Assembly: GCF_900114035.1 (NCBI RefSeq)
Contig: NZ_FORP01000001.1
Span: forward strand, 310,001 to 374,000
DNA length: 64,000 nt
From: Amycolatopsis sacchari
GTDB lineage: Bacteria; Actinomycetota; Actinomycetes; Mycobacteriales; Pseudonocardiaceae
Direction of reading: 5' to 3'
Position 1 is the first letter of the stretch, and every line of letters starts with the position of its first letter. Position numbers and translations under genes: made by a program. Of the stretch, positions 45,615 to 50,561 are shown piece after piece. The notes beneath the pieces are model-generated. The model saw nothing but the letters and a program-made list of their open reading frames with translations, was not told where the DNA came from and made no database searches.

Positions 45615-46646
45615 TCAGTCCCAGTCGAGCGAGCCGCCGGTCTGGTACTCGGTCACGCGGGTCTCGAAGAAGTTCTTCTCCTTCTTCAGGTCCATCGCCT
45701 CCGACATCCACGGGAACGGGTTCTCGCTCGCGCCGAAGATCGGCGCCAGCCCGATCTGCTGCGCCCGCCGGTCGGTGATGAAGTGCATGTACTGCTCGCA
45801 CAGCTCCGCCGACAACCCGAGCATCCCGCGCGGCATCGTGTCGCGGGCGTAGGCGACCTCCAGCTCGCACGCCTCGATCAGCATCCCGCGCACCTCGTCG
45901 GCGAACTCCGGCGTCCACAGGTGCGGGTTCTCGATCTTGATCTGGTTGATGCAGTCGATGCCGAAGTTCAGGTGGATCGACTCGTCCCGCAGGATGTACT
46001 GGTACTGCTCGGCGATGCCCACCATCTTGTTGCGCCGTCCCAGCGACAGGATCTGCGCGAACCCGGTGTAGAACCACATGCCCTCGAACACGACGTAGAA
46101 CGCCACGAGGTCGCGCAGGAAGTCCTGGTCGTCGGCGGCGTTTTCCAGGCCGCGGGTGTACTTCAGCGCCCACGCGTCCTTCGCGGTGATCGAGGGGACC
46201 TCGCGGTACATGTTGAACAGCTCGCCCTCGACGAGGCCGAGGCTCTCGCAGATGTACTGGAAGGTGTGCGTGTGCACGGCCTCCTCGAACGCCTGGCGCA
46301 GCAGGTACTGCCGGCACTCGGGGTTGGTGATCCGCTGGTACACCGCGAGCACGAGGTTGTTGGCCACCAGGGATTCCGCGGTCGCGAAGAAGCCCAGGTT
46401 GCGCTTGAGCATCACGCGTTCGTCCTCGGTCAGGCCGTCGCGGGAGCGCCAGAGCGCGATGTCGGCCTGCATCGACACCTCGGTCGGCATCCAGTGGTTG
46501 CTGCACGCCGCCAGGTACTTCTCCCAGGCCCAGCGGTACTTCAGCGGCAGCAGCTGGTTCACGTCGGCGCGGGCGTTGAGCATCGCCTTGTCGTCGATGC
46601 TGACGCGTCCCGCGTCGCAGTCGATCAGGGGGCTCACGTCGGTCAC
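45615..46646 (-). CDS. nrdB: Ribonucleotide reductase beta subunit, class Ic-like
   Basis: An R2-type protein of 343 residues that supplies the oxidising cofactor for NrdA. The metal ligands are E91 (FFATAESL), E122 and H125 ([10 protein letters not shown]), E188 ([10 protein letters not shown]), E222 and H225 ([11 protein letters not shown]). The position of the radical tyrosine is F129 and the first ligand is Glu, not Asp. Both are class Ic features, as in the Chlamydia Mn/Fe enzyme. The C-terminal Y334 ([11 protein letters not shown]) should carry the electron to NrdA. GTG start overlaps nrdA by four bases. Confidence 0.93.
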
Positions 46647-49600
46647 TGGCAGGCCTCGCAGTCGGGGTCGTCGATCCGGCAGGCGGCGGGTTCCGGTGCG
46701 GCGACCGGAACCGAGGGCACCGTCGCGGGCACGGCGTTGAGCTTGCCGTCCGTTCCGCGCAGGGTGCTCTTCTCCACGCTCGTGGCGGCGCGGGCCCGCA
46801 GGTAGTAGGTGGTCTTCAGGCCCTTGTGCCACGCGTAGCGGTACAGCTCGTCGAGCTTGCGGCCGCTCGGCGCGTCCACGTACAGGTTGAGCGACTGCGC
46901 CTGGTCGATCCACTTCTGCCGGCGGGACGCGGCGTCCACCAGCCACCGGCTGTCGATCTCGAACGCGGTGGCGTAGAGCCGCTTGAGGTCGGCGGGGATC
47001 CGGTCGATCTGGGCGAGGCTGCCGTCGAAGTACTTCAGGTCCGACACCATCGCCTCGTCCCACAGCCCGCGTTCCTTGAGGCTGCGCACCAGGTGCGGGT
47101 TGACGACGGTGAAGTCGCCGGACATGTTGGACTTGACGAACAGGTTCTGGAACAGCGGCTCGATGGACTGGCCGACGCCGCAGATGTTGGAGATCGTCGC
47201 GGTGGGCGCGATCGCCATGACGTTGGAGTTGCGCATCCCGGTGGTGCGGACGCGTTCCCGCAGGCCGTCCCAGTCCAATGTGGACGAGTGGTCGACCTCC
47301 AGCCCGTCGCCGACGCGGGCCTGCTCCAGCAGGCGCAGCGAGTCGATCGGCAGGATGCCCTGGCTCCACAGGGATCCTTCGAAGGACTCGTACCGCCCGC
47401 GCTCGGCGGCGAGGTCCGCCGAAGCGGAGATCGCGTAGTAGCTGATGTGCTCCATGCTGCGGTCGGCGAACTCGACGGCCTCGTCGGACGCGAACGGCAG
47501 GCCGAGTTCGAAGAGCGCGTCCTGGAAGCCCATCAGGCCCAGGCCGACCGGGCGGTGCCGCAGGTTGGACCGGCGCGCCTCGGGGATCGTGTAGAAGTTG
47601 ATGTCGATGACGTTGTCCAGCATCCGGACGGCGGTGCGGACGGTGCGCTCCAGTTTCGCGGTGTCCAGGCCCTCCGGCGTGACGTGCTGGAGGAGGTTCA
47701 CCGAGCCGAGGTTGCACACGGCGACCTCGTCGCTGCTGGTGTTGAGCGTGATCTCCGTGCACAGGTTCGACGAGTGCACGACGCCGGCGTGCTGCTGCGG
47801 CGAGCGCAGGTTCGACGGGTCCTTGAACGTGATCCACGGGTGCCCGGTCTCGAACAGCATGGTCAGCATGCGCCGCCACAGGTCCACGGCCCGCACGCGC
47901 TTGAACACCTTGATCTCGCCCCGGTCGGCGGCGGCCTCGTACTCGCGGTAGCGCTGGGCGAACGCGTTGCCGTAGAGGTCGTGCAGGTCGGGCGTCTCGT
48001 CGGGGGAGAACAGCGTCCACGCCCCGTCGGCCTCGACGCGGCGGAGGAACTCGTCGGGCACCCAGTTGGCGGTGTTCATGTCGTGGGTGCGGCGCCGGTC
48101 GTCGCCGGTGTTCTTGCGCAGGTCGAGGAACTCCTCGACGTCGATGTGCCAGGTCTCGAGGTAGGCGCAGGCGGCGCCTTTCCGCTTCCCGCCGTTGTGC
48201 ACCAGGCCCGCGACCGTCATGTAGGACTCGTCGCCCTCGACCTTCAGGTCGAACACGGTGGGCACCACATCGATCTCGCGCACGTCGCGTACGCGGGAAA
48301 AGACCATCCCCTGGTACTCGATCCAGTTCCGCTTCACCACCGGACGGCAGCCGAGCAACTGCGCGATCTCCGGCACCGCGGGGACCCGGATGTCGAGGGT
48401 CTTCCCATCCGACGGAATCCCCAGGCGAAGCAGTTGGTAACGCACTGCGGCCGCGAGGTGGCGCGAGGTCGTGGTGAAGTGGACCTCGACACCCCGCGAC
48501 ACGCCGCCACGGGTCTCCAGCAAACCCTGCAGCAGAGCCAGGGTCTGCGGCCTGGGCAGGTGCGCCAGCCTGCGTGCGATGCGCTTGTTGTGTTCGCCGT
48601 CGTAGAGGTCCGCGGCGGTGAACGGCAGGGATGGCTCGCGCGCTCCCGTGAGCGGTTCCGCCGCCCAGTGGATCTGTGCGTGGTCGTCGCCGCGTTCGGT
48701 CTCCCCGAAGTGGATGCCGCGCTCGGTGAGGTACTTCCGGACGAAGTCCAGATGGGTGTCCAGCTCGGGATTCCCGGAGACGCCCCACTGCTGTCCGTCC
48801 TTGGACAGGTGACCGTCGCCCAGCAGGATGCCGTACAGACGCGCGTCCTCTTCGGTGAAGCCGGGCAGGGGCACGACCTCCTTCGGCACGACCTGGGCCA
48901 CGTAGTCGCCCTTGGTCAGGTGGCTCGCGTCGACCCACTCCGGACGGACCTTGCCGTCCGCGAGCCACTTGAGGGTCCGCTGGTTCTCCTGCCCGAGCGG
49001 CACGCCCTGGATGGCGTAGAACGGGTGTCCTGACGTGACCTTCAGGGTTTCGGCGGAGTGCTTGACGTTCACCTCGACCATCGGGTCGGTCTGGTCGTAG
49101 GCGAGTACGTCGGTCACCTCGCGGTAGCTGCCGCTCGAGCCGAGCACCAGGTCACCGACGCGGACGTCCCGGATCGCCTTGACCCCGTCCGCGGTGTAGA
49201 TGCCCGTCTCCGGTGCGAAGCACTGGTTCACGGCCACCGCGGTGTCGTTCGCGATCTTGAGGAACGGGACCACGCCCTGCGACTTGCCGTTGGTGCCCTT
49301 GATGTGCGCGCCGAGGCCGCGGACCGGCGTCCAGTCGTTGCCGAGGCCGCCCGAGTACTTGGCCAGCAGTGCGTTGTTCTTGTACGACTGGAAGATCGAG
49401 TCCAGCTCGTCGTCGACCGTGGTCAGGAAGCACGACGACAGCTGCGGGCGCGTCGTGCCGGAGTTGAACAGCGTCGGCGTCGAGGCCATGAACGCGAAGC
49501 TCGACAACAGCTCGTAGAACTCGATCGCGCGCTTCTCGCGGTCGTCCTCGCGCAGCGCCAGGCCCATCGCGACCCGCATGAAGAACGCCTGCGGCAGCTC

Positions 49601-50443
49601 GAACCGCGTGCCGTCGTGGTGCAGGAAGTAGCGGTCGTAGAGGGTCTGCAGGCCGAGGAAGCCGAAGTCGAGGTCGCGCTCGGGGCGGATCGCGGCGGTG
49701 ATCTTCTTCAGGTTGAACTTCGCCAGCTCGGGGTCGGCCAGCTCCAGCTCGATCGCCCGCGCGAGGTAGTCGCGGAAGTAGCCGGGGTAGTTGAGCTCGT
49801 CGTGGCTGGCCTGGCGCGGCTCGCCGGCCAGGTAGCCCAGCGCCTCGCCGCGCAGCTTGTCCAGCAGCAGGCGGGCCGTGACGAACGAGTAGTTGGGCTC
49901 CTTCTCCACGAGTGTGCGGGCGGCCATGATCAGCGCCGTCCCCAGCTCGTCGGCCGTGATGCCCTGGTAGAGGTTCCGCTTGGTCTCGGCCAGCACCGGC
50001 TCCGCCGACACGTCGTCGATCCCCGCGACGGCCTCGCCGACGACGTGCTCGACGCGGGCCCAGTCGACGTGCGCGGAGGCGTCCGGCTCGGCGGGCTGTT
50101 CGCGGGCCTTCGCGTGCTCCTCCCGGTAGAGCACGTACGCGCGGGCGACCTTGTGGTGCCCGCCGCGCATGAGCGCGAGCTCCACCTGGTCCTGGATCTG
50201 CTCGATGTGCAGCGCGGCCTCGGGGGTGGCGTGGCGCAGCAGAGCCGTCTCGACCTGGCCGGTCAGCTCGGTCACGACGTGGTGGATGCGCGAGGACGCC
50301 GCGGCGCCGTCCCCTTCGACCGCGAGGAAGGCCTTGGTCAGGGCGACCGAGATCTTGCCCGCGTCGAAGGGGGACACACTGCCGTCGCGGCGGATGACCT
50401 GCACGGCGGTGCGCGCCGGCCGTGAGGTGGTCTCCACAGACAT
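46643..50443 (-). CDS. nrdA: Ribonucleotide reductase alpha subunit containing an intein
   Basis: A polypeptide of 1266 residues, 923 without the intein. An N-terminal ATP-cone ([20 protein letters not shown]) is followed by the barrel domain. Active-site residues are C338 (LSSCFL), N893/C895/E897 (SNLCTEI) and C910 ([10 protein letters not shown]), with the redox pair at the C-terminus (DPDCEACQ). It makes deoxynucleotides from ribonucleoside diphosphates with NrdB. The intein interrupts VAVNQ/GGKRKG, so the enzyme is inactive unless it is removed with ligation. GGAG precedes the ATG; NrdR-like boxes lie upstream. Confidence 0.95.
48194..49222 (-). mobile_element. Intein in NrdA with a Gly at the +1 position
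   Basis: 343 residues (NrdA 408-750). Block A starts with Cys1 ([10 protein letters not shown]). Block B has T63-S-G-H66 (VTSGHPFYA). Block F has [12 protein letters not shown]. Block G ends GLVHN with His342-Asn343. The next residue is Gly, not Cys/Ser/Thr. The exteins would join as VNQ-GGKRKG, the normal NrdA sequence. A LAGLIDADG endonuclease is inserted: first motif LYGILLGDG keeps D136, second motif LQGLLETRG has R238 where the catalytic acid should be, so nuclease activity is doubtful. Boundaries rest on the block pattern and are firm. Confidence 0.92.
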
Positions 50444-50561
50444 GCATCACTCCAAAAATGGGCGCGTGGGATCGGCACGCCGCCGCGGGGGACGACGTGC
50501 TGGAGGACAGGCTTCGCCCGGCAGCCAGCGTCTCCCGTCGCTGGGCGCTGCCGGTGATCGA

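Follow-up and report, generated by a model that had tools for sequence, protein, structure and literature searches.

To our knowledge, inteins of all three classes use a Cys, Ser or Thr residue at the +1 position, and type A BIL domains are devoid of a homing endonuclease. Type A BILs, which carry a C-terminal His-Asn without a +1 nucleophile, can splice, with cleavage being the dominant outcome, and the route proposed for them in the available text of PMC4031507 runs from an N-terminal thioester through Asn cyclisation to the attack of the released amine on that thioester. The predominance of cleavage in type A BILs is also stated in the excerpted text of PMC7664689, and BILs are described as occupying variable regions of nonconserved proteins (PMC7765530, PMC5874633; both as excerpted).

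The window analysed here, a stretch of 64,000 nucleotides from Amycolatopsis sacchari, contains an nrdA gene interrupted by an intein that is followed by Gly. It resembles the RIR1/NrdA LAGLIDADG inteins, including the Azotobacter nrdA intein, in Cys1, the TxxH motif, His-Asn, an embedded endonuclease and a conserved site, and differs from them in having no Cys, Ser or Thr at +1. The InBase entry reportedly labels the Azotobacter nrdA intein a BIL, and a literature search for this BIL entry found nothing. That intein is placed at amino acids 442-800 in the available text of PMC4465626, where its +1 residue goes unmentioned; the placement agrees with the junction between residues 442 and 443 of 5im3_A, and, compared by position only, the intein may be the same element at the same site. 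With type A BILs the window intein shares the C-terminal His-Asn, a non-nucleophilic +1 residue and the proposed ligation by a freed amine (PMC4031507, available text); however, type A BILs mostly cleave and lie in variable regions, whereas the NrdA intein harbours a homing endonuclease and interrupts a housekeeping enzyme at a conserved site. The inteins with non-canonical routes described in the same portion of PMC4031507 lack Cys1 and use the +1 residue, in contrast to the Cys1, block F Asp and Gly+1 found here. The split NrdA of phage Aeh1 likewise owes its structure to a mobile element in nrdA and its function persists, but it is encoded by two genes as a result of the insertion of a free-standing endonuclease gene (PMC2988022, as excerpted), whereas the present insert is in-frame. 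Among the papers listed by the literature searches, none names a Gly+1 NrdA intein in its title or the opening of its abstract.

Structure and classification of the insert

The insert at 48194-49222 is an intein in NrdA that possesses Cys1 and His-Asn and has Gly at +1 (Table 1). Its excision from the window sequence restores VNQ-GGKRKG, and when aligned to PDB chain 5im3_A, which we take to be Pseudomonas NrdA, the two NrdA flanks abut exactly, the N-terminal part extending to residue 442 and the C-terminal part starting from 443. In R1 chains such as 1rlr_A, presumably E. coli NrdA, the start of the latter corresponds to position 295. We take this site to be the specificity loop 2 of that enzyme, where Gln294 and Arg298 are assumed to contact the substrate. 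The initial annotation had located the element, its Cys1, TxxH, block F Asp and His-Asn, the restored junction and Gly+1 correctly in every respect.

Table 1. Features of the interrupted nrdA gene and of nrdB (positions in the window)
Feature	Position	Strand	Basis or remark
nrdA, class I ribonucleotide reductase large subunit	46643..50443	-	1266 aa including the intein; NF005544, 1599.7 bits (cut-off 965)
N-extein, 407 aa, C-terminal end AVAVNQ	49223..50443	-	residues 11-407 align to 5im3_A 29-442
Intein, 343 aa (343 codons), Cys1 to Asn343	48194..49222	-	residues and alignment of the copies
Cys1, N-terminal nucleophile	49220..49222	-	Cys in 25/25 copies
Block B TSGH, T63-x-x-H66	49025..49036	-	Thr and His in 25/25 copies
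LAGLIDADG-like motif 1, LYGILLGDG, Asp kept	48812..48838	-	Asp in 22/25 copies
LAGLIDADG-like motif 2, LLETRGG, Arg replaces Asp	48503..48523	-	Asp in 20/25 copies; Arg in the window copy only
Deletion point within the endonuclease part, where most relatives have ~25 more residues	48403..48404	-	alignment A1
Block F Asp325 (F:4 by our own reading of the motif)	48248..48250	-	Asp in 25/25 copies
Block G His342-Asn343	48194..48199	-	25/25 copies
Gly+1 Gly+2, start of C-extein; Gly+1 codon GGC at 48191-48193	48188..48193	-	25/25 copies
Cys+9 of C-extein, possible remote nucleophile	48167..48169	-	Cys in 25/25 copies and in uninterrupted alleles
C-extein, 516 aa; SNLCTE, VAVC, YYLRA and C-terminal CEAC all present	46646..48193	-	
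nrdB, small subunit, directly downstream, start codon uncertain	45615..46583	-	NF005550, 624.5 bits (cut-off 309)

Profile searches with the window intein, its last Asn omitted, gave a match to LAGLIDADG_3 over the cut-off, and four Hint/intein profiles matched the intein at E-values of 3.5e-6 to 9.7e-5, all below their curated cut-offs. Among 13 aligned intein members, E-values of 0.01 or lower were obtained with LAGLIDADG_3 in all 13 and with Intein_splicing and Hint_2 in 11 each, while of two relatives compared with the NCBIfam model intein_Nterm, one gave a match below the cut-off and the other none. Profile searches against solved structures yielded weak matches divided between inteins and a BIL, to the BIL 2lwy (E 0.0036) and gp41-1 (0.0037) with profile A1, and to PI-PkoII (0.00024), gp41-1 (0.0023) and the BIL (0.043) with profile A4. 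An AlphaFold model made with five sequences had a mean pLDDT of 53.7, too low for locating the Gly amine relative to Cys1.

The element has the general characters of an intein: it is inserted in frame, the host protein is restored once it is taken out, and it contains the Hint blocks A, B, F and G. Of the N-terminal Cys or Ser typical of class 1, Cys is present in 25/25 copies, and the Cys, Ser or Thr of that class at +1 is replaced by Gly in 25/25. Class 3 inteins lack Cys1 and carry a Cys at F:4 with a WCT motif, whereas all 25 copies possess both Cys1 and the block F Asp; judged by its residues, the NrdA intein is neither class 2 nor class 3. Like type A BILs, every copy combines a non-nucleophilic +1 residue with a C-terminal His-Asn, but the element lies at a conserved NrdA site rather than in a variable region of a non-conserved protein, and LAGLIDADG_3, detected at E-values up to 0.01 in 13/13 members, departs from the missing homing endonuclease of those domains.

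The endonuclease region of the window intein has two gaps relative to most relatives, one of about 10 residues, common to genome G101, and the other of about 25. An active LAGLIDADG enzyme carries an acidic residue in both motifs, and the window copy has Arg in motif 2. Asp is found in both LAGLIDADG columns in 20 of the 25 copies, G788b and G789 being among them with an altered motif 2.

Occurrence and conservation of the Gly+1 element

The searches identified 25 close copies distributed over 24 genomes, of which the window's family accounts for 8 and Chromohalobacter's order for 16. All 25 share the insertion site, Cys1, the block B Thr and His, the block F Asp, His-Asn, Gly+1, Gly+2 and Cys+9, have an intein length divisible by 3 and maintain the precursor as one unbroken, stop-free reading frame. 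The pattern used for cutting out the copies required CF...HN followed by GGKR; all 25 input loci fit it and no strong match was lost, and no copy with a nucleophilic +1 residue was seen among the 25, which constitute all the strong matches of the searches. The occurrence of Gly+1 in 25/25 copies answers the question of its conservation among related NrdA inteins raised by the initial annotation, rules out a sequencing or frame error at +1 as well as an isolated decay, and lends no support to a correction of this codon to Cys, Ser or Thr.

Two other origins of the insert were considered and rejected. A self-splicing RNA intron is contradicted by the lack of any Rfam match at the gathering score in 46600-50500 and by the single open frame of the insert in 25/25 copies. 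As regards a phage origin, query P0002 retrieved from the phage collection only 14 Erwinia phage records, which were 32-34% identical to it across roughly one third of its length, and a scan of viral contigs with profile A1 matched 91 stretches, none of which was confirmed.

The empty site was surveyed in 24 loci, 15 of which are uninterrupted nrdA genes from three genera, the window's included. All 15 read VNQ-GG, so that Gly+1 is apparently a host constraint, and it looks as though the insertion site itself fixes Gly at +1. The remaining 9 loci lack the VNQ-GG motif and are other ribonucleotide reductase (RNR) genes, since they carry SNPCSE in place of the SNLCxE of NrdA. The uninterrupted alleles also bear upon a possible role of Cys+9, which might accept the acyl group and pass it to the Gly+1 amine by a long-range S-to-N shift. 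The presence of this Cys in all 25 copies is in keeping with such a relay, but it needs no intein-related reason because the 15 uninterrupted alleles carry it too, and the transfer would require a large ring. The relay is considered highly improbable, and a lesser rival than the reassembly of cleaved fragments discussed below.

The element is patchily distributed. Within the window's genus it occurs in 2 of 19 genomes, the window's own being counted, and strong matches were obtained in 8 of 390 genomes of the family; 48 further family genomes matched weakly (E 9e-8 or worse), and two such loci that were inspected, L013 and L023, are other intein-bearing genes. L023 comprises an ORF with two intein-like inserts, each ending in His-Asn followed by Ser. 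Chromohalobacter's order has the element in 3 of 390 sampled genomes, with ten more weak matches; two of its genera carry it in 10/16 and 5/9 genomes, and their family in 15/206. Four loci were recovered when named genomes were scanned. They come from Kibdelosporangium aridum (Pseudonocardiaceae), Chromohalobacter sp. 296-RDG (Gammaproteobacteria) and two records bearing the titles Rhodococcus rhodnii and Actinosynnema sp.; all but the Chromohalobacter locus are exactly those of the family genomes G212, G217 and G218, so that they add no copies and point to Pseudonocardiaceae as the window's family. The records of Rhodococcus rhodnii NRRL B-16535 (G217) and Actinosynnema sp. ALI-1.44 (G218) fall into one genus with Kibdelosporangium aridum (G212), and the Rhodococcus title may be wrong. 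Genome G788 contains two different intein-bearing nrdA genes (L056 and L061), one of them very close to that of G789; the assembly may be mixed, or the second copy genuine.

Patchy presence (2/19 genomes in the window's genus, 10/16 and 5/9 in the two other genera) together with an endonuclease is the pattern of a mobile element. This speaks against a regulated switch that inactivates NrdA by cleavage, a very remote alternative in our estimate, which would accord with the removal of the usual acceptor by Gly+1. Transfer between phyla is not proven. The Chromohalobacter intein is 65.8% identical to the actinobacterial and 63.1% to the other gammaproteobacterial inteins, as against 70.0% and 76.5% for its C-extein, and when the parts are compared separately only the endonuclease part favours the actinobacteria (70.6% and 63.3%, compared with 59.8% and 62.8% for the Hint part); the unrooted trees are without conflict.

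Ribonucleotide reductase repertoire and selective constraint in the carriers

An nrdJ gene, for which a search had been proposed in the initial annotation, is indeed present in the window genome as an NrdJ-type gene (G000:C20:88813-90639; 618.1 bits, cut-off 399.95), so the essentiality of NrdA cannot be argued in this organism. The repertoire of the other carriers was examined with PF02867. Fifteen carriers have the interrupted nrdA as the only class I/II large subunit found; 14 of these show nothing but the two halves of that gene and G788 two interrupted copies, with the halves located on two contigs in G797 and the C-terminal half being short in G781. The search is able to reveal a second RNR, as a second PF02867 gene was detected in each of the other nine carrier genomes. 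Neither a class III RNR (PF13597) nor an RTPR over the cut-off (TIGR02505) was found in the 17 genomes searched; weak TIGR02505 matches in 15 of the 17 coincide with these nrdA genes, and in the case of G000 with NrdJ as well.

Absence of an RNR from a draft genome can mislead, since among 10 non-carriers of the same genera three (G784, G787, G799) had no PF02867 match at all, the other seven having one uninterrupted gene. Three of the 15 sole-RNR carriers, G773, G794 and G800, are assembled on contigs of 4,330,499, 5,069,597 and 4,309,190 bases, about whole genome sizes. A bacterium with a genome of 4.31-5.07 Mb almost surely needs an RNR of its own. Because the interrupted gene encodes the only RNR detected on these genome-length contigs, the interrupted NrdA should yield an active enzyme and very probably works in the sole-RNR carriers.

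Selection was assessed by dN/dS (Nei-Gojobori) in 15 pairs, separately for the N-extein, Hint, endonuclease and C-extein parts, the N-extein values including an open leader before the start codon that inflates them in some pairs (0.58 for G000-G101). The clade of G780, G781 and G792, which has lost one or both of the LAGLIDADG Asp residues (3 of the 15 pairs), shows values of 0.27-0.33 for the endonuclease, 0.12-0.14 for Hint and 0.04-0.07 for the exteins; the exteins and Hint stay constrained in this clade while the endonuclease drifts. The endonuclease also exceeds Hint in G773-G780 (0.49 vs 0.17) and G788b-G789 (0.29 vs 0.15), and Hint is the faster part in G795-G797 (0.27 vs 0.16). For the window copy and G003 the values are 0.21 (N-extein), 0.12 (Hint), 0.11 (endonuclease) and 0.16 (C-extein), which points to a recent decay of the endonuclease in the window copy, as it is not faster despite the Asp to Arg change and the deletion.

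The C-extein of the window compared with the uninterrupted allele of G005 has a dN/dS of 0.19 (dN 0.054, dS 0.284). Median C-extein values are 0.179 for carriers (28 pairs) and 0.156 for free alleles (28 pairs) in the actinobacteria, and 0.174 (78 pairs) and 0.108 (18 pairs) in the gammaproteobacteria, where the carriers comprise 13 copies without G390, G781, G782 and G797 and 3 of the 21 free pairs were dropped as lying outside the dS range. All these values are far below 1, with carriers somewhat above the free alleles, and the NrdA exteins are under purifying selection.

These data bear on the view that the window organism has a dead NrdA or can do without it, with NrdJ supplying the deoxynucleotides and the intein being a relic. 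The presence of NrdJ, a second PF02867 gene in 9/9 genomes and the decayed endonuclease part of the window copy accord with it; a backup enzyme might also suit the cobalamin riboswitch (RF00174) found just upstream of the intein-bearing nrdA in three of eight sources, all relatives (L035 3881-4075, L036 3883-4076, L037 3889-4075), while no RF00174 match at the gathering score was obtained in the window. The frame, the catalytic motifs and nrdB are, however, intact, the C-extein remains constrained against both G003 and G005, and the splicing residues are retained despite the decay of the endonuclease; moreover, such a view does not fit the sole-RNR carriers. It is regarded as quite improbable. 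The suggestions of the initial annotation that the intein is splicing-incompetent and that NrdAB is dead are both unlikely for the family, given the interruption of the sole RNR in 15 carriers and the purifying selection on the exteins, and what survives of the second is a possible rescue by NrdJ in the window organism alone.

Probable splicing route and its implications

The comparisons lead us to favour, with some confidence, a working and probably mobile NrdA intein that ligates its exteins without a side-chain nucleophile at +1, probably with the Gly-Gly amine, once released, as the nucleophile that attacks the Cys1 thioester. An N-S acyl shift at Gln(-1)-Cys1 would generate the thioester, cyclisation of Asn343 assisted by His342 would free the C-extein with an N-terminal Gly-Gly, and the alpha-amine of Gly+1, which is unhindered and would be kept in place by the Hint fold, would attack the thioester to form a direct Gln-Gly bond with no branched ester. 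Ligation by the Gly-Gly amine would amount to a sortase-like finish. Judged from sequence, the anatomy of the intein has all that the amine route needs, in addition to an unhindered Gly-Gly amine, and it is from such features that we infer the ligation and its route. Since the window organism possesses NrdJ and a decayed endonuclease part, it is the conservation of the element that would argue for splicing there. Efficient ligation by the amine route is an assumption, because type A BILs give mostly cleavage products (PMC4031507, PMC7664689; available text). The initial annotation had attributed any splicing to an unknown route, which is too strong in view of the splicing of type A BILs without a +1 nucleophile described in the accessible part of PMC4031507.

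The main rival is an intein that only cleaves, with NrdA active as two non-covalently assembled fragments. Cys1 and His-Asn would be retained in this case as well, and the split NrdA of phage Aeh1 is reported to be fully functional (PMC2988022, as excerpted). Free ends at position 295, within the presumed specificity loop 2, should nevertheless harm substrate selection, and the maintenance of a single unbroken precursor frame rather than two genes in 25/25 copies fits ligation without proving it; fragment reassembly is considered unlikely.

The best reading of the sequences is that the lack of the usual acceptor does not keep the NrdA intein from splicing, or at least from functioning. We are evenly divided on the broader proposal that these elements form a distinct class of mobile inteins which splice efficiently without a side-chain acceptor, the Gly-Gly alpha-amine performing the ligation in an enzyme essential for DNA synthesis and the chemistry having been selected by the glycine constraint of the host. 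A Gly+1 intein, seemingly retained by selection in what is apparently the sole RNR of several bacteria, makes acceptor-free splicing testable where efficiency should be required, and a domain that splices in this way would serve protein ligation free of a Cys, Ser or Thr scar.
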